This document shows, one piece after another, positions 1,859-9,622 of a stretch of 64,000 bases of DNA. Below the pieces are notes generated by a model. That model did not search any database, was not told where the DNA came from, and saw nothing but the letters and a program-made list of their open reading frames with translations. The position numbers were made by a program, and so were the translations under genes. How positions within the stretch are numbered: the stretch's first letter is position 1; each line of letters starts with the position of its first letter. Source of the stretch: an uncultured Fibrobacter sp. (GTDB lineage Bacteria; Fibrobacterota; Fibrobacteria; Fibrobacterales; Fibrobacteraceae); the NCBI RefSeq assembly GCF_947166265.1, contig NZ_CAMVDO010000004.1:1-64000 (forward strand). Reading direction: 5' to 3'.

Positions 1859-3910
1859 TTAATCATTACCGCTTTCGCCTAGTTCTTTATCAGTTCCTTC
1901 AGTAGGATTTTCACCATTTACTCCAGGTTTCTTCGGTTCCTTATCACCATAGTAAGCATTTTTCAACTCTATAAGGAACTTGTCATCTTTATCCAATCCT
2001 CGTAAGTATTCGCGAACGACGCCCTCAATGTGATTTTCCCAAAGAGCTTTAAAAGCATCTGATTCATTTTTCTTGGACGAATCGTAATATTTGGCAAACT
2101 TCAAGAAATAAGCACCACCGATTTGATATGCCTGACCGAGATGATATTTAGGATCGAGAATTTTCTTATTGAGATCATCCATTCGATTTTTCAATCTTTC
2201 TAGAAGTTCAGGAGTGATATCTTTTTCCGTACTTTTCTTCCATTTTTCAACATTTCCAAACATCGATTCCTGGCTTTGTTTAGCCGTAATTTCCTTAAAG
2301 GCAAATCTACGACGCATAGCAAAATCAATACTATCAACACTGCGGTCGATATCGTTCATCGTGCCAATGATATAGACATTTTCAGGAACGAAGAAATGAC
2401 CGTAGTTTTCATTTTCACCGTCATCCTTTATACCTAAAGCCTCATCAAACTTATTCGGCTTTTTTTGGAGATTGGCATACTGCGTACGAATTGTTGTAGT
2501 TTTATTTTCATCTCCAAGATCATCTTGTTTTACACGATAACCAGGATCAATAGAATAGAAAAGTTCTCCCAAAATTTTGGACATTTCACCACGATTAATC
2601 TCATCAATTATAAAGACGAAGTTTTTTCGTTCCGTTTTCTTAGTATCGTCAAATTCAATTTTACCAGCTTCATCATAAATTTTTTGCGCAATTACAAAAA
2701 TATACGAATCCTTTTGTCTATGACGATTTCTACCCAACGCATCGCGAACGTCCTTTACCTTTTGGGGCTTTCCTTGTACTAAAACACCAACCAATTCATC
2801 TAGTTCAAATTCAACAACATTCTTTTTGGGATTATTCGGAATATTTACAATGATAGAATCATCATTTGCAAACTCAATAGAAAACTTATTTTTCGTTTGT
2901 TTTGTTTCAAAAGAATTTGGCAATTTTGCTTCAACAGATTCATCTTCAATTTCAGTCTCACCGTCTTCAATTCTAGAGAAAAACTCTTTGCATTTTTCTC
3001 TCCAAAAAATTTCTTTTCCTAAATCAGCCCCTGACTTTCGGCTATCTAATAAATTTTTCAAGGCTTTTCTACAAAAAGCCTTAAAAACACCTTCCTTCAA
3101 TTCAAAGCCTATTTTTTCTTGACCTTGATTCACAGGACGTAAGCCTTCTACGAAATCAGTGTAATCATAGGATTGATGGAACTGAACAAAACCAATTTCA
3201 TCTTTGGAACAACTCAGCATCTTCGTAGCAATATCCTTTGCAAGATACGTTTTACCTGTTCCCGGAGCACCATGAAGAATAATGTTATGATTATTGAGAA
3301 GGAAGTCTTTGATTTCACTTAATTTTTCTTCCATGATAATTTCCTCAGCAGTTTTGGTCTTTACCAATTCCTTGTATTTATTAAACAACGCTATATTACT
3401 TTTGTCCCATTGATCCAATTCTTCAACAAAATCATCAAACGACTCACTTAACAAGTCCTTTGAAGAAATAATCACATGCATTCCCTCATGCGACTGCCCT
3501 TTTCCTTTTTTAGAGGAATTTGTTAAAGCTTCATCAATTTTCCAGCCTTTCGCTTTACATACATTATTAAGTTGCGTCATCACATCAGGAAATAATTCAA
3601 CAGGCACTTCCTCATAGCCTCGTTGACTATTTCCACATCTTAATTCAAACCAAAAATAATCAGTACTTCTTAAAGTCAAGCAATACCCAGTTCTACCTTT
3701 AGCATCACCTTTTTGAGGCCACGCATTAGAATTCTTTCTACAAAAAAATATTTTTTCACCACTGAGTTTTTTATCTTTTTTGCTTGTTATTTCATCATCT
3801 TTTTTTTCAAACCAATCGTTTACTATTTGAAAACCTTTTGCTTCAAGCAACTGCTTTATCTTATCGCCTTTGCCTTCAACTATTTTTTTATTTTCCTCAT
3901 TATATTCCAC
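1859..3910 (-). CDS. mcrB: McrB-like AAA+ GTPase motor
   Basis: 683 residues with a GTG start, chosen because AGGAG lies 9 bases upstream. McrB-type AAA+ proteins form hexameric rings that hydrolyse GTP and recruit McrC. Walker A GAPGTGKT is at 214-221, Walker B FIIDEINRGE at about 433-442, and an NxxD motif (N519-D522, in GTMNDID) sits where E. coli McrB has its NTAD guanine-specificity motif; arginines follow in AMRRRF. The first 200 residues are the target-reading part. They do not look like the E. coli methylcytosine-binding domain, so what is recognised is unknown. A roughly 150-residue insertion between Walker A and B is longer than in E. coli McrB. Six bases separate it from the upstream DUF2779 gene, so the two are almost certainly co-transcribed. 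Confidence 0.88.
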   Translation of the reverse strand: MEYNEENKKIVEGKGDKIKQLLEAKGFQIVNDWFEKKDDEITSKKDKKLSGEKIFFCRKNSNAWPQKGDAKGRTGYCLTLRSTDYFWFELRCGNSQRGYEEVPVELFPDVMTQLNNVCKAKGWKIDEALTNSSKKGKGQSHEGMHVIISSKDLLSESFDDFVEELDQWDKSNIALFNKYKELVKTKTAEEIIMEEKLSEIKDFLLNNHNIILHGAPGTGKTYLAKDIATKMLSCSKDEIGFVQFHQSYDYTDFVEGLRPVNQGQEKIGFELKEGVFKAFCRKALKNLLDSRKSGADLGKEIFWREKCKEFFSRIEDGETEIEDESVEAKLPNSFETKQTKNKFSIEFANDDSIIVNIPNNPKKNVVEFELDELVGVLVQGKPQKVKDVRDALGRNRHRQKDSYIFVIAQKIYDEAGKIEFDDTKKTERKNFVFIIDEINRGEMSKILGELFYSIDPGYRVKQDDLGDENKTTTIRTQYANLQKKPNKFDEALGIKDDGENENYGHFFVPENVYIIGTMNDIDRSVDSIDFAMRRRFAFKEITAKQSQESMFGNVEKWKKSTEKDITPELLERLKNRMDDLNKKILDPKYHLGQAYQIGGAYFLKFAKYYDSSKKNESDAFKALWENHIEGVVREYLRGLDKDDKFLIELKNAYYGDKEPKKPGVNGENPTEGTDKELGESGND

Positions 3911-3916
3911 AGTCTC

Positions 3917-5965
3917 TTACTCCTGACAGTTTTTCCTGAAGTATTCCCAGATGCGGACCATTGCGAGGGTGTCGACTTCGCAGTATTTGAGGGATGCCTG
4001 GCGGATTGCTTCGGTATGCAGCTTGTTGAAGCGACCGGCTTGCAGCATCACGTAATCGAGCTTGCTGATGCCACCGCAGTTGATTTGCTTTTCATCGTTC
4101 CAGATGTCGGAATCGTCGAAATCGGCAGGGAACTTGTTTGCATCAACATTCGCGGCAAACTCTTTTAACATCGGCAAATTATGGTAGGGATCCATATTGT
4201 CGCCGTAATGATCGCGGAAATAAGCCTCATCGCTAGCCAAAATGGCAGGAAACACCTGCTTGATGGAATTAGAACTCCCCATCATCGGATGGTAGAAGTA
4301 TTTTTGAGCGACAGCCTTCAAATCCAACATATCACGGGGTCCTGCAGTAAACGGATACTTACAACTTCCCGTCGGATGCGTAATTTTTTCAATAAAGCGA
4401 ACCAACTCGTCCTTGTCGGATTCGTCTGATTCAATCAACTGAACTCTAATAGCGTTGAGAATAATATTTTCATGTTCTGCATAACGGAAGATCGTTCCGT
4501 CATCATTGTCCAATTGTTTTTTCAGTTCACGGACAAATTTGAAATTCGGATTCTTGCCAGCCTCTAGCGAAATGAACTCTCCCCCACGCCCTTCTTTGTG
4601 TTCATAATGTCCATCCTCATAACAGACATGGTGAGAGAACTGGTAGGCAACTTCTTCGTTCGGGCGCGAGCCCTTGAACAGCGGGACAGCACCTTGATAA
4701 GTTTCAAAATCGATAAAATGCAGCGGATAGGTCCACTTCGCCATTTCAGCTTTCGCGGCAGCCTTCAAGAATGTCGGTGCCACTTCACCGGTCTTTACGC
4801 TGTGAACATGCAAGAAACGCAGGTCATTATCCGAAAGTTTCGTGCGTTTTTGGAACGCTTCAGGAGTCGCTTCTTCAGCAGGAACATATTCGTATTCGTT
4901 GATATCGGTCAGGAGAAGCTTTTTCTGTTCAAGCCAGCCATTGCCCTTGAGACTTGGCGGCAGTCCCTTTGAACCACCCTTGACATCTACAATGCAAGGT
5001 TTCCCAGCAATATCAACTCCAAGCATATCCTTGAAGAACTCTGCACGACCATCTTTCTTGCCAGCTTTGCGTTCCTCGTCTGTGGCGTAGAACGGACAAT
5101 TAAATTTTTTCACATCAACTTTACAGAGGCTATAGTCCTTGCGGTTGTTGACATACATGTCCGCAACTTTTTCGACAAAATCCACAAAACAACCATTAAA
5201 TTTTTCATTAGCAATTTCAGGAATTTCATCATTGATAATCTTGTCGCAGAGTTCATCCACATCGATAACGCGGGCGATGCTATTTTTGCCCTGCAATTTT
5301 TCACGAATGTCCGAAGCACATTCTACTTCGCGATGACCATCCTTGAACTTAATCTGTAACAGCGAGCTCAAAGAATCAACATCGCTTATGGCATCGGTGT
5401 TTACAAGCATCAGCTTGGCACGAACCTTGAGGTGCGAATAACTTTCAAAGAACTTGGTAAACTGCTGCACCACGTATTTCTGGAATGTAACATCCAAAAT
5501 CTTATCTAGGTAATCCGATTTGAACTTGCCGCCGCGACCGTCAAAAGAATACAGCGGTTCATCGGCACCAATCCCCTTCGACTTGACTTCAATAATTTCA
5601 AGGGTATCACCCCGCTTGTGCAAGATATCGACATAGACCAAGAAGTTGTTCGTGCCAAAGGCGGCTTCAGCCACATCGGCATTTTCCATACGGAGAAAGC
5701 GCATCGTGTCTACAAGGGTTTTCATCTGGGCAGGAACCGGCGAAAGCGTCGGATCCCTGCGGATGATGTTCTCGTCGGGAACGCCCTCGTAAACGCGGGC
5801 AAGTGCACCAAACTGGTCGCCCACTTCGGCAATGCCATCGACTCCATCAAAGTGGTAGGCGTAGTCTTTGGAATTGCGGTAGTAATACGCATACATCGCA
5901 CATTCTACCGCCTGGTTGAACGCCGACTTGGTGAACTTTTTCTCGTGATACTTGTTGTCGAGCAT
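3917..5965 (-). CDS. DUF2779 protein: RecB/Cas4-like nuclease fused to DnaQ-like exonuclease
   Basis: 682 residues. The N-terminal part looks like a RecB/Cas4-type PD-(D/E)xK nuclease: a C22-containing motif at 11-30 (FTKSAFNQAVECAMYAYYYR), D113, E126-V-K128, and a helix with Q162 like the RecB QxxxY motif. Cysteines at 281 and 290 could help bind metal. The C-terminal half matches DUF2779, an RNase H-fold family: FIDFET (D419, E421), a middle Asp in DMLDLK (545-550), and Y661-C-E-V-D665, which together make a DnaQ-type DEDD exonuclease set. Two nuclease sites in one chain next to McrBC suggest it processes the DNA that McrBC cuts. That role is inferred from position. GAAGG precedes the ATG. 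It is 44 bases after the DUF285 gene and 6 bases before mcrB. Confidence 0.75.
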   Translation of the reverse strand: MLDNKYHEKKFTKSAFNQAVECAMYAYYYRNSKDYAYHFDGVDGIAEVGDQFGALARVYEGVPDENIIRRDPTLSPVPAQMKTLVDTMRFLRMENADVAEAAFGTNNFLVYVDILHKRGDTLEIIEVKSKGIGADEPLYSFDGRGGKFKSDYLDKILDVTFQKYVVQQFTKFFESYSHLKVRAKLMLVNTDAISDVDSLSSLLQIKFKDGHREVECASDIREKLQGKNSIARVIDVDELCDKIINDEIPEIANEKFNGCFVDFVEKVADMYVNNRKDYSLCKVDVKKFNCPFYATDEERKAGKKDGRAEFFKDMLGVDIAGKPCIVDVKGGSKGLPPSLKGNGWLEQKKLLLTDINEYEYVPAEEATPEAFQKRTKLSDNDLRFLHVHSVKTGEVAPTFLKAAAKAEMAKWTYPLHFIDFETYQGAVPLFKGSRPNEEVAYQFSHHVCYEDGHYEHKEGRGGEFISLEAGKNPNFKFVRELKKQLDNDDGTIFRYAEHENIILNAIRVQLIESDESDKDELVRFIEKITHPTGSCKYPFTAGPRDMLDLKAVAQKYFYHPMMGSSNSIKQVFPAILASDEAYFRDHYGDNMDPYHNLPMLKEFAANVDANKFPADFDDSDIWNDEKQINCGGISKLDYVMLQAGRFNKLHTEAIRQASLKYCEVDTLAMVRIWEYFRKNCQE

Positions 5966-6009: not shown

Positions 6010-7431
6010 TTATTCCTTGTACCACTTGGGAGTCTTCTTTTTCAGGGGAGAATCCGCAAACATATCGGACATATCAACATTTTTCGACACGTTCCATTTA
6101 TCAAGATTTCCTTGAAATTTAGAAGATGCGAACATTTCACTCATTGTCTCAACGTTTGACACATCCCATCCGCTGATATCACCATTAAAAATGGAATTTT
6201 TAAACATATGCTCCATGTTTGTAACATTCGACACATTCCATTTACTGATATCACCATTGAATTGCGATTCTCGAAACATATGACTCATATCTGTAACGTT
6301 TGACACATCCCATTTACTGATATCGCCATTAAAATCCTTATAACAGAACAAGCTTTCCATATCGGTAATTTTAGACACATCGATAAAATTCAAGTCACAC
6401 TTATCACCATTTTTCGTAATAGCCGCACGAATCAAAGCGTCCAAATGATTTCTGCTTTGAGCAACGACATTTTTTGCAGAGACGTCAAAGATTTTCCATT
6501 TTGGAACATATTCTTCATTATCAGATCCATAAAACAATTCCGATACATTACATTCTAAAGAAACATTCCATTTATCAATGTTCCCCTGAAATTTGGAATT
6601 TGCAAACATATAGCGCATATCCGTAACATTCGACACATTCCATTTGCTAACATCTCCATTAAATTCTGAGCCATCGAACATGCCGGTCATATCAGCAACT
6701 TTTGATACATCCCATTTACTGAGGTCGCCATTAAATTGCGTTTCACTGAACATGTTGGACATATCAGTCACATTTGAAACATCCCATTTACTAACATCGC
6801 CATCAAATTGAGAGTTACAGAACATGCTAGACATATCAGTCACATTTGAAACATTCCATTTGCTGATATCGCCATTAAAACTCGAATATTGAAACAGGCA
6901 ACTCATTATAGAGACATTCGACACATTCCATTTACTAATATCACCATTAAACGAAGATTCTTCAAACATCTGTTGCATATTAGAGACATTTGAAACATCC
7001 CATTCGCTGATGTCTCCATTGAAAGGCGTACTCAAGAACATTCCCATCATATCCTTTACCTTGGAAACATTCCATTGGCAAACATCACCGTTAAAAGCAG
7101 ACCATGCAAACATGGCTTTCATATTTACAACATTTGACACATCCCATTTGCTGATATCACCATTAAATTCGCTATTCGCAAACAAATCGCTCATATCCGT
7201 AACTTTAGATACGTCAATGAAATTCAAATCGCAATTTTTGCCATTCTTTTTAATAGCGGCTTTTATCAATTTAGTTAAATCATTTTTGTCTTTAGCAACA
7301 ACCGTCTTTTGTTCAGCGGTCTTTTTGGCAGCTGTAGTTTTCTTAGTTTCTACAGTTTTCTTGGCAGTAGTTGTCTTTTTAGTGGCAGTAGTCTTTTTCA
7401 CTTGTTTAGTTTCTTTTGTTTGTTCTTTCAT
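6010..7431 (-). CDS. DUF285 (BspA-like) repeat protein with basic tail, larger paralogue
   Basis: 473 residues. Residues 1-45 are a lysine/threonine/alanine-rich tail (repeated TAKKT and KKTT units), like the tails of histone H1-like bacterial proteins. A cap follows (DLTKLIKAAIKKNGKNCDLN), then nine roughly 24-residue repeats with core FNGDISKWNVSNVTDM, then a second cap (near 328) and four more repeats. This is the DUF285 solenoid. The protein ends in a P-K-W-Y-K-E motif shared with its neighbour. Most DUF285 proteins are secreted or surface-bound, but this one has no signal peptide or membrane segment, so it should be cytoplasmic. It probably arose by duplication: the leader AAGGCTGGTAAATATG is the same as that of the upstream paralogue. 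Function is unknown; binding of a partner or of DNA is an inference. Confidence 0.8.
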   Translation of the reverse strand: MKEQTKETKQVKKTTATKKTTTAKKTVETKKTTAAKKTAEQKTVVAKDKNDLTKLIKAAIKKNGKNCDLNFIDVSKVTDMSDLFANSEFNGDISKWDVSNVVNMKAMFAWSAFNGDVCQWNVSKVKDMMGMFLSTPFNGDISEWDVSNVSNMQQMFEESSFNGDISKWNVSNVSIMSCLFQYSSFNGDISKWNVSNVTDMSSMFCNSQFDGDVSKWDVSNVTDMSNMFSETQFNGDLSKWDVSKVADMTGMFDGSEFNGDVSKWNVSNVTDMRYMFANSKFQGNIDKWNVSLECNVSELFYGSDNEEYVPKWKIFDVSAKNVVAQSRNHLDALIRAAITKNGDKCDLNFIDVSKITDMESLFCYKDFNGDISKWDVSNVTDMSHMFRESQFNGDISKWNVSNVTNMEHMFKNSIFNGDISGWDVSNVETMSEMFASSKFQGNLDKWNVSKNVDMSDMFADSPLKKKTPKWYKE

Positions 7432-7452: not shown

Positions 7453-8292
7453 TTATTTTTCCAAAGAGCTTTCCTTGTACCACTTAGGAGGTTTCTTTTT
7501 CAATGGAGAATCATCAAACATCATCCCTATAATTTTCACTTTAGATATATCCCATTTGCTAATATCGCCATTAAAACGAGAATTAGAGAACATGCTGAAC
7601 ATATTGGTAACATTTGATACATTCCAATCGCTGATATTGCCATTAAATTGAGAACCATCAAACATCAAGGACATATTTGTAACTTTAGACACGTTCCACT
7701 TACTGATATCGCCAGTGAATTTCGATTCTTGGAACATCATGAGCATTTTCTTTACTTTAGATACATTCCATTGACTGATATCACCATTAAATTGAGAACC
7801 GTAGAACATTCCAGACATATCTGTAACATTTGAAACATTCCACTTGCTGATATCACCATTAAATTGAGATTCACTGAACATATCTTGCATATTCTTTACC
7901 TTAGATACGTTCCACTGGCTAATATCGCCATTAAACTGAGACTGACTGAACATAAATGTCATGTCCTGAACTTTAGACACATCCCACTGACTAATATCGC
8001 CATTGAATTGCGATTGCATAAATAAATTGCTCATATCCGTAACATTTGATACGTCAATGAAATTCAAATCACAATTTGTACCATTCTTTTTAATGGCGGT
8101 TTCTATCAATTTAATCAAATCATTCTTGTCTTTAGCGACAACTGTTTTTTGACCCGCGGTCTTTGGTGCAGCTGCTTTCTTTGGAGATGCTGTAGTCTTC
8201 TTGGTTGCTGTTGCCTTTGGAGACGCCACAGCCTTCTTAGCAACCGTAGCCTTTTTAGCTGTAGTTGTCTTTGCTTTTGTTTGTTCAGTCAT
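7453..8292 (-). CDS. DUF285 (BspA-like) repeat protein with basic tail, smaller paralogue
   Basis: 279 residues and the first gene of the predicted five-gene unit. Residues 1-50 are rich in Lys, Ala and Thr with AKKA/TKKT units. A cap (DLIKLIETAIKKNGTNCDLN) is followed by seven repeats of the FNGDISQWNVSKV type and a closing SPLKKKPPKWYKE segment. There is no signal peptide. It is a tandem paralogue of the downstream gene, with the same cap, repeat and end motif but one repeat block instead of two. Only 21 bases separate the two genes. A leader of about 200 bases with several hairpins and a C11 tract lies upstream. The AT-rich composition matches the rest of the island. Confidence 0.8.
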   Translation of the reverse strand: MTEQTKAKTTTAKKATVAKKAVASPKATATKKTTASPKKAAAPKTAGQKTVVAKDKNDLIKLIETAIKKNGTNCDLNFIDVSNVTDMSNLFMQSQFNGDISQWDVSKVQDMTFMFSQSQFNGDISQWNVSKVKNMQDMFSESQFNGDISKWNVSNVTDMSGMFYGSQFNGDISQWNVSKVKKMLMMFQESKFTGDISKWNVSKVTNMSLMFDGSQFNGNISDWNVSNVTNMFSMFSNSRFNGDISKWDISKVKIIGMMFDDSPLKKKPPKWYKESSLEK

Positions 8293-8323
8293 ATTTACCA
8301 GCCTTTTGCTTTAGATTTTTTTT

Positions 8324-8500
8324 TCAAAATAGAGAGCATACGTCAAAAGGACGGTTTCCATTGCGGAAATCGTCTTTGCCACTGACGCAACAAACTTGTA
8401 AAACAGATTTTACATAGGGGGGGGGGGTAACGGATTTTAGCGAATCACCTTTCTGATCCGTTCCAAACACAACAACGTCACCCAACATATTCATACAATT
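8324..8500 (-). promoter_or_regulatory. Structured 5' leader of the DUF285-McrBC unit
   Basis: On the minus strand, four hairpins can be drawn in order. First AACGGAT (8462-8456) pairs with ATCCGTT (8435-8429). After the C11 tract, GTAAAA (8413-8408) pairs with TTTTAC (8403-8398) around a four-base loop. Then TGCGTCA (8389-8383) pairs with TGACGTA (8345-8339) with one G-U. Enclosed within that, GACG-A-TTTCC (8374-8365) pairs with GGAAA-C-CGTC (8359-8350) with one internal mismatch. A 56-codon frame starting at an ATG at 8491 also crosses the segment, but its bases are better explained by pairing. It looks like a cis-acting RNA element; I cannot match it to a named family. Confidence 0.5.
8417..8427 (-). 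repeat. Homopolymer C11 (G11 on the plus strand) in the leader
   Basis: Eleven consecutive G on the plus strand lie in the leader of the DUF285-McrBC unit, about 125 bases from the first start codon, in the unpaired link between the first two predicted hairpins. Long G/C homopolymers are typical slippage sites for phase variation in bacteria. A length change would shift the short leader frame but would not join it to the DUF285 frame, which has a TAA just upstream. Confidence 0.7.
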
Positions 8501-8508
8501 CAAATATA
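8501..8508 (-). promoter_or_regulatory. Predicted promoter box TATATTTG for the DUF285-McrBC unit
   Basis: The minus strand reads TATATTTG, the same downstream promoter box as in front of both tRNA genes here. A weak TTTACA lies 21 bases upstream, which is farther than the usual 16-18. Transcription would start near 8495, giving a leader of about 200 bases before the first DUF285 gene. Confidence 0.5.
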
Positions 8509-8613
8509 CATCAAAAATTAACAAAGGGATGTAAAATAGCGTGATTTTTTGAAATTCCAGCCGTATTTCCGACTGATTTCGTAAAAAGAAATAAATTTTC
8601 CGAAAAAAAGGCA

Positions 8614-8689
8614 TTGAACGTTCAAAAATTACGTGTATAGTATAGATAGGGACCCTTTTCTCTGTCGCTACACGGAATCCTCCGTGTAG
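8614..8689 (+). promoter_or_regulatory. Promoter with palindrome and 5' hairpin ahead of the Rpn-type gene
   Basis: TTGAAC (8614-8619) and TATAGT (8636-8641) are spaced by 16 bases. The first box is half of a perfect 12-base palindrome, TTGAACGTTCAA (8614-8625), which could be an operator. Downstream CTACACGGA (8668-8676) pairs perfectly with TCCGTGTAG (8681-8689), forming a 9-bp hairpin in the leader 18 bases before the start codon. Confidence 0.45.
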
Positions 8690-8707: not shown

Positions 8708-9622
8708 ATGACTAGAGAAGAATTTGCCGTTTTTCAGCATAAACTGAAAAATGCGGATGATAACGGACTTGACCTTGACGCAATCGTCAAGGAATACGAA
8801 CATCGGAATGTCTATTTCTACAATGATGGGTGCATCAAGAAAATTCTCGCAAGCGAGAAGAACTTGATGCTCACGACGGACTTGCTGAACGCAGCGCTGA
8901 ACCTTGTCGGTTCAGACCGCATTGAGAACCCGAAGCTCGTGAACCCCTATATTCCTGGAGAATTGGGATACCGCAGTGTTGAACCCGATTTGCTGCTGAC
9001 GAACGACCGTGGCGAAAATATTCCGCGTGACCGCATCTCCATTGACGTTCAGCATGAAAACAACGATTCTCTGTTCAACGACCGTTTGGTTCTTTATGTG
9101 GCTCGCCTTACGAGCAGCATGGAAAAGGTTGGAAAGTTTACGCGGCTGGAAAATCTGCATGTGGTCAGTTTCCAGTTTTTCGATGCGTTCAAGGAGTCCC
9201 CGAACTATCGCCATAAGGTACAGCTCCGCAATCAGGAGCAGCGTGTATATTTCGAACGGCAGACGGTGACGCTTATCGAAGTGAACAAGTTCCTCAAGCA
9301 GAAGGAAAAGTTCGAAGGCGACAATAGCCGCATTGCACAGTGGCTCCGTGCCATCGATACGCTCAACCGTGAAGCCGATTTCAGCGAGTTTGCTGCGGAT
9401 TCCGTGTTCAAGGTCTTGCAAAACGAGGTAAAATTGTGTAATTTTAGTGCTAGGTATATGATTAGCACGATGATGAGAGATGTTGAGAAGGCTAGCTGGG
9501 AATACAGTGGTGGCCTTAAAAAAGCTCGCGAAATTGCGAAGAAAATGCGCGATAAGGGAGTCGATATTTCCATTATAAAGGAAACGACTAATCTTTCCGA
9601 AAAAGAAATTCGCGAGCTCTAA
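8708..9622 (+). CDS. Rpn family PD-(D/E)xK nuclease / transposase-like protein
   Basis: 304 residues. It matches the Rpn/YhgA-like family with a PD-(D/E)xK nuclease fold, whose members promote recombination and are often mobile. The core is visible as VEPDLLLTN (D94), then ISIDVQ (D113, Q115), followed by a helix with FNDRLVLYVARL. The usual acidic residue of E-x-Q is Asp here. The C-terminal AREIAKKMRDKGVDISIIKE stretch with a closing LSEKEI segment is typical of the family's tail, a small helix-turn-helix-like motif. It stands alone with its own promoter and terminator. Its base composition is closer to the host than to the AT-rich island on its left, so it marks the island's right border. 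Confidence 0.8.
   Translation: MTREEFAVFQHKLKNADDNGLDLDAIVKEYEHRNVYFYNDGCIKKILASEKNLMLTTDLLNAALNLVGSDRIENPKLVNPYIPGELGYRSVEPDLLLTNDRGENIPRDRISIDVQHENNDSLFNDRLVLYVARLTSSMEKVGKFTRLENLHVVSFQFFDAFKESPNYRHKVQLRNQEQRVYFERQTVTLIEVNKFLKQKEKFEGDNSRIAQWLRAIDTLNREADFSEFAADSVFKVLQNEVKLCNFSARYMISTMMRDVEKASWEYSGGLKKAREIAKKMRDKGVDISIIKETTNLSEKEIREL

Follow-up and report, generated by a model that had tools for sequence, protein, structure and literature searches.

A recurrent Fibrobacter leader ORF with a C tract that probably switches the operon behind it

Homopolymer contingency loci, such as the poly-C and poly-G loci of Neisseria and Campylobacter, carry a pure C or G tract close to the start of an ORF; the tract lengths differ by single steps, the frames vary among relatives, and surface and restriction genes are among the targets. 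The Fibrobacter leader described here resembles these loci in all of these traits, but here the tract belongs to a distinct short leader ORF that comes with a promoter box of its own and a recurring flank, termed here the gate, and one and the same leader unit precedes unrelated operons. Phase-variable type I hsdS genes with simple repeats are a second related system, and in an hsdS locus found here (L208) and its relatives the specificity domains are likewise separated by a C tract or by AAGC repeats. They differ from the described genes in that the flank of the L208 tract is that of the leader, and the operon studied here would be gated from the leader and not from within a specificity gene. 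Leader-peptide attenuators also place a short ORF and nearby hairpins ahead of an operon, whereas the Fibrobacter leader has no conserved regulatory codons besides the tract and varies in frame and tract length. The open-access literature yielded no account of phase variation in Fibrobacter or of this leader.

The window is the whole stretch of 64,000 nucleotides that was analysed, taken from an uncultured Fibrobacter sp. The sequence-only reading had presented positions 8324 to 8508 as a structured leader; overall, the element is best read as a small ORF, and these coordinates comprise the ORF and its promoter box. The unit is read on the minus strand and starts with a -10 box, TATATTTG, found as reported at 8501-8508 and read from the sequence. 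An ATG (8492-8494) located 8 bases past the TATATT hexamer of this box opens an apparently leaderless ORF of 56 aa (8324-8494; MNMLGDVVVFGTDQKGDSLKSVTPPPYVKSVLQVCCVSGKDDFRNGNRPFDVCSLF), which ends with a stop codon at 8324-8326 and runs in frame through the C11 homopolymer. This tract was confirmed at 8417-8427 (G11 on the plus strand); it supplies proline codons, it is the presumed slippage site, and relatives carry C7-C15 at the same place. The gate segment with its P3 hairpin (TGTAAAATCTGTTTTACA, 8397-8414) is open in the frame set by C11, while C10 there would hit a stop at once. One off frame of the window gate keeps its TAA (8410-8412); the usual TAG is absent, and therefore the second off frame runs on to 8343-8345. 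An A9 run at 8317-8325 overlaps the TGA stop of the leader ORF (minus strand TGAAAAAAAAAT) and is a possible second slippage site.

The hairpins reported earlier were present, namely the perfect TGTAAAA/TTTTACA stem at 8397-8414 and the stem GACGATTTCC/GGAAACCGTC with one mismatch at 8350-8374. The latter lies within the open frame, is followed by CTTTTG and is, by sequence and predicted fold, a weak terminator candidate; terminator scans called no terminator in the window leader, this hairpin included. A possible stem P1 (8425-8483) would join GGGTGACG (8476-8483) with CGTTACCC (8425-8432), both arms being paired in the predicted fold.

Five genes follow the leader, all on the minus strand. 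The first encodes a DUF285 protein of 279 aa (7453-8292; PF03382), starts 31 nt past the leader stop and carries an AAAAGG of its own ahead of the ATG. It is followed by a second DUF285 protein of 473 aa (6010-7431; PF03382), a DUF2779 protein of 682 aa (3917-5965; PF11074), an McrB-like AAA+ protein of 683 aa (1859-3910; AAA_5, PF07728) and an McrC-like subunit of 501 aa (333-1838; McrBC, PF10117). The adjacent McrB and McrC genes, with PF07728 and PF10117, are the pair by which McrBC is recognized, and the DUF285-McrBC operon looks like a restriction system. Relatives of the McrB-like protein, 48-61% identical, were found in 7 congeners; an orthologous DUF285-McrBC operon was not found in the congeners, which yielded only these McrB relatives. 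On the other side of the leader, the region 8573-8669 before a PDDEXK_2 (Rpn-like) gene (8708-9622, plus strand) is a repeated element, about 70-96% identical at several sites in the genome and in congeners, and a perfect 9-bp hairpin (CTACACGGA/TCCGTGTAG, 8668-8689) lies just past it. Upstream matches of a first DNA search fell mostly into this repeated region and were not counted as leader copies.

A long C or G run by itself is no rarity in this genome, where 7 runs of at least 10 were counted in 3.77 Mb against about 4 expected from a base-composition estimate, i.e., near chance. The tract together with its flank, unlike the bare run, recurs far above chance. The pattern TTTACA-N0-4-G8 gave about 35 sites in 61 congeners, where its reversed control matched 7 times in 3 genomes; a stricter pattern gave 47 result rows versus 2 for the control (80 genomes), and within the window's own genome the flanked tract has a single partner. 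Scanning 85,000 species genomes for the exact pattern, a form of search that diverged copies outside the genus would escape, returned 8 loci, all from Fibrobacter or Fibrobacterales, 5 of which were possibly already in the genus search. A sequence model (R1) mainly recovered its own training loci and added one new full-length copy (G084:C38); a further match, L216, is probably due to chance and was set aside. When read on the C strand, the loci split into class B, which are window-like, and class A, which lie before one lipoprotein family. Class A loci (L111-L114, L117, L122) have the arrangement TAAATTTTACA-ATG-G8..10 before lipoprotein genes; L111 and L112 have it in tandem, and in L122 the stop of an ORF read through G14 would overlap the lipoprotein start as ATGA. 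They were considered as the same element and rejected: their right flank belongs to one gene family and they are read on the opposite strand, which leaves homology unsupported. In L209 and L210, also before lipoprotein genes, TTTACA and TATATAT flank a G8-G9 tract at a promoter-spacer-like spacing of 18-19 nt.

Twenty class B leaders from 16 Fibrobacter genomes were aligned and showed a common anatomy. A TAnATTT-like box recurs 5-13 nt before an invariant ATG, and in 20 of 20 the ORF is open as far as the tract. For 15 loci the product of shuffle probabilities for this openness was about 1e-9, a value that includes some choice of ATG, as the ATG nearest to the -10 box was taken after the sequences had been inspected. 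The tract measures C7-C15 and is interrupted in one of the aligned leaders. It is followed by TGTAAAnTnTAG, which holds stops in two frames, only one of them in the window; with GTAAAnTnTAGTTTACAA or its variants after the tract, TAA is usually met after one codon and TAG after three. The third frame, V[NK][FS]SLQ, stays open for 15-265 codons toward the next gene or fused to it, and beyond the gate it outlasts the other frames (p 6e-5 with all loci counted; 0.008 when restricted to the 11 that are independent and unfused). From its stop to the next gene the gap is 3 nt in L119, 12 in L126, 15 in L121, 22 in L129, 28 in L120 and 31 in the window; in L148, L118 and L124 the open frame overlaps the next gene.

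These leaders thus combine a pure homopolymer of at least 7 residues with a reading frame set by its length and with lengths that vary among relatives. Tract slippage acting as translational phase variation is, by these sequence comparisons, the most likely reading of the leader and one that we favor with some confidence. The phase variation proposed in the sequence-only reading is supported by the comparison: tract length and frame vary among the relatives, and of three interrupted tracts two keep the frame (L125 and L211) and one does not (L204). These comparisons rest on consensus assemblies with one genome per species. Among pure-tract copies about 4 of 22, the window included, are in the open frame, at most the one third expected of a free-running tract, and with so few in the open frame many may therefore be off or decayed. 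The same-locus copies L120, L080 and L127 all have C9, as do L118 and L119.

That most copies are formally out of frame would also suit recoding, i.e., a ribosome or RNA polymerase that slips with a fixed frequency along the C run, such that a constant mix of frames sets a level and not a heritable state. Runs of at least eight C with a hairpin directly after them resemble recoding sites. Lengths from 7 to 15, shifting frames and interrupted copies in frame are nevertheless a better fit to slippage of DNA, and hsdS tracts at such sites are typical of phase variation; we therefore consider recoding very unlikely.

The other proposal of the sequence-only reading, a structured element that binds a ligand, is not supported, the signal past the tract being a coding one. 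There the differences between the window and L124 number 1, 1 and 6 by codon position, i.e., they are mainly third-position, and the window and its relatives differ in length without loss of frame; a related peptide, DFxxGNRPFDVCS, occurs in L124, L109 and L115, with changes mostly in third positions. Before the tract, the corresponding counts for window and L124 are 9, 10 and 9, so that an excess at the wobble position is absent. Compared with shuffled sequences, the leader fold scored z -2.0 on the minus strand (7 of 200 shuffles) and z -3.2 on the plus strand, and with z-scores this modest folding is therefore only mildly above chance. Covariation in P1 was weak: 57% of its cells pair, with some compensatory pairs, and the overall score was reached by 34 of 500 shuffles, while in P3 84% of cells pair and the sequence is nearly invariant. 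An Rfam search gave no match of the leader to a known RNA family. Rfam, fold z-scores and pair counting together gave the structured-RNA reading weak support only, and it was dropped. The leader is probably not a riboswitch or another conserved ligand-binding fold, and an RNA fold within it is possible.

A translational attenuator would use such hairpins differently: a ribosome stalled at the polyproline or CCC stretch would select among them and so set downstream transcription, the exact tract length being irrelevant. The ORF that is open up to the tract, the prolines that the tract encodes in every frame, the hairpin that adjoins it in most copies, the terminator-like hairpins that some leaders contain (L118, L123, L126) and the compensatory pairs of P1 are all compatible with this. 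It does not account for the single frame that reaches the cargo start, for in-frame fusion to cargo or for the use of pure C instead of CCN. Moreover, L121 and L123 lose the P3 stem and keep one or both stop codons, and the gate segment also sits inside hsdS. Attenuation is thus quite unlikely in our judgment.

Phase variation, the preferred reading, agrees with the relation of the leader to the genes behind it. Copies before related genes, which the sequence-only reading had suggested looking for, do occur: in L126 a leader precedes a DUF285 operon in another species, and many other genes follow it elsewhere. The cargo families comprise DUF285/McrBC, Band-7/GYF with a zinc ribbon, FRG, radical SAM with a TatD-like gene, and Fib_succ_major lipoproteins; DUF285 with PDDEXK_4 is a further combination. 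Similar leaders precede unrelated genes: the leader of L115 is 71% identical to that of L124 over 165 nt and 74% identical to that of the window over 88 nt. The leader has also been grafted onto genes whose relatives start without it. The TatD-like amidohydrolase has its native start MLFDFHVHMGQ, with no leader, in L127, whereas in L125 the leader replaces this start and is in frame through an interrupted tract (CCCTCCCCC). The same fusion is out of frame in L116 (C11) and L137 (C9), and the tracts of the TatD-like fusions are C8, C9, C11 and an interrupted one. For a PDDEXK_4 gene, the interrupted tract of L211 is in frame and the C10 of L205 is out of frame.

Changing cargo could also mean that the motif is mainly a synteny break or mobile repeat at which cargo is exchanged, by homologous or site-specific recombination, its coding potential being incidental or decaying. 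On the promoter side, L118 and L119 share 6.5 kb at 94% identity, and this homology stops 14 nt past the motif; a common leader with different cargo is seen in L120, L127 and L080, and the motif occurs in other contexts and on the opposite strand. Open frames that run to cargo starts and into fusions argue against it, and neither a recombinase nor paired sites were found at the motif. We give this explanation very little credence. A transposon end or integron-like site was suggested by the sharp break between L118 and L119; it was rejected as an assignment for want of the recombinase and paired sites and is kept within this rival. L120, L127 and L080 represent one chromosomal site with its leader and differing cargo, L120 carrying FRG and L127 radical SAM with TatD-like; this site is, from its layout, a likely exchange hotspot.

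Inside an hsdS gene, the tract and gate take another position. In L208, C8-AGGTAAACAATAGTTTAC splits the two specificity domains, with Methylase_S on both sides, and at about this position GTTAG-C7-9-CTAAC, GTTAG-G7-CTAAC or AAGC repeats occur in its relatives. The hsdS genes L230-L236 show GTTAG-C7..C9-CTAAC near the interdomain linker and also GTTAG-G7-CTAAC, as though the tract had been inverted; an interrupted in-frame CCCCCTCC belongs to the same set, and L232 and L233 carry an AAGC repeat run near the linker. Such sites would suit a dedicated, mobile cassette for phase variation, in which short inverted arms (TTAC...GTAA or TTAG...CTAA) enclose a homopolymer. It would be copied in front of unrelated genes for defence, surface and phage functions or into them, and a cell factor or fold-back structure would perhaps drive length switching or even invert the tract (compare C7 with G7 at one hsdS site). 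We regard this as tentative and on the whole unlikely. A small phage gene with a G8-G10 tract after about codon 19 was found in L165-L168 (IMG/VR phage contigs) and L089; L167 alone has it in frame, the tract is retained down to 56% protein identity, and by this pattern the gene is probably phase-variable.

Under translational phase variation, the TAnATTT-like -10 promoter would start the transcript at or beside the ATG, and a ribosome would translate about 20-30 codons before entering the C tract. If the tract puts the open frame in register, the ribosome would read through the conserved segment toward the first operon gene, and this read-through would either shield the leader from termination or couple to the start of the first gene; in fused loci the leader ORF is joined straight to the gene. 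Either of the other frames would bring the ribosome to a stop almost immediately (TAA and usually TAG, in the window TAA only), and expression of the operon would fall. Slippage of the tract would flip the state, and the window copy with C11 would be in the ON frame. The leaders therefore probably switch whichever operon follows as the C run lengthens or shortens. The earlier proposal of an expression switch for the whole system is retained as the best reading of the element, while its effect on the DUF285-McrBC operon is something we infer. As the window gate lacks one stop and the first DUF285 gene has its own AAAAGG, coupling there could be loose and the effect softened.

If this reading is true, a major rumen fibre degrader would randomly toggle restriction-type, nuclease and surface genes by means of an interchangeable leader, which would partly explain strain differences in phage sensitivity and surface. 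The recurring gate sequence prompts the question by what means such a short unit spreads, and it offers a handle for finding phase-variable genes in Fibrobacter.
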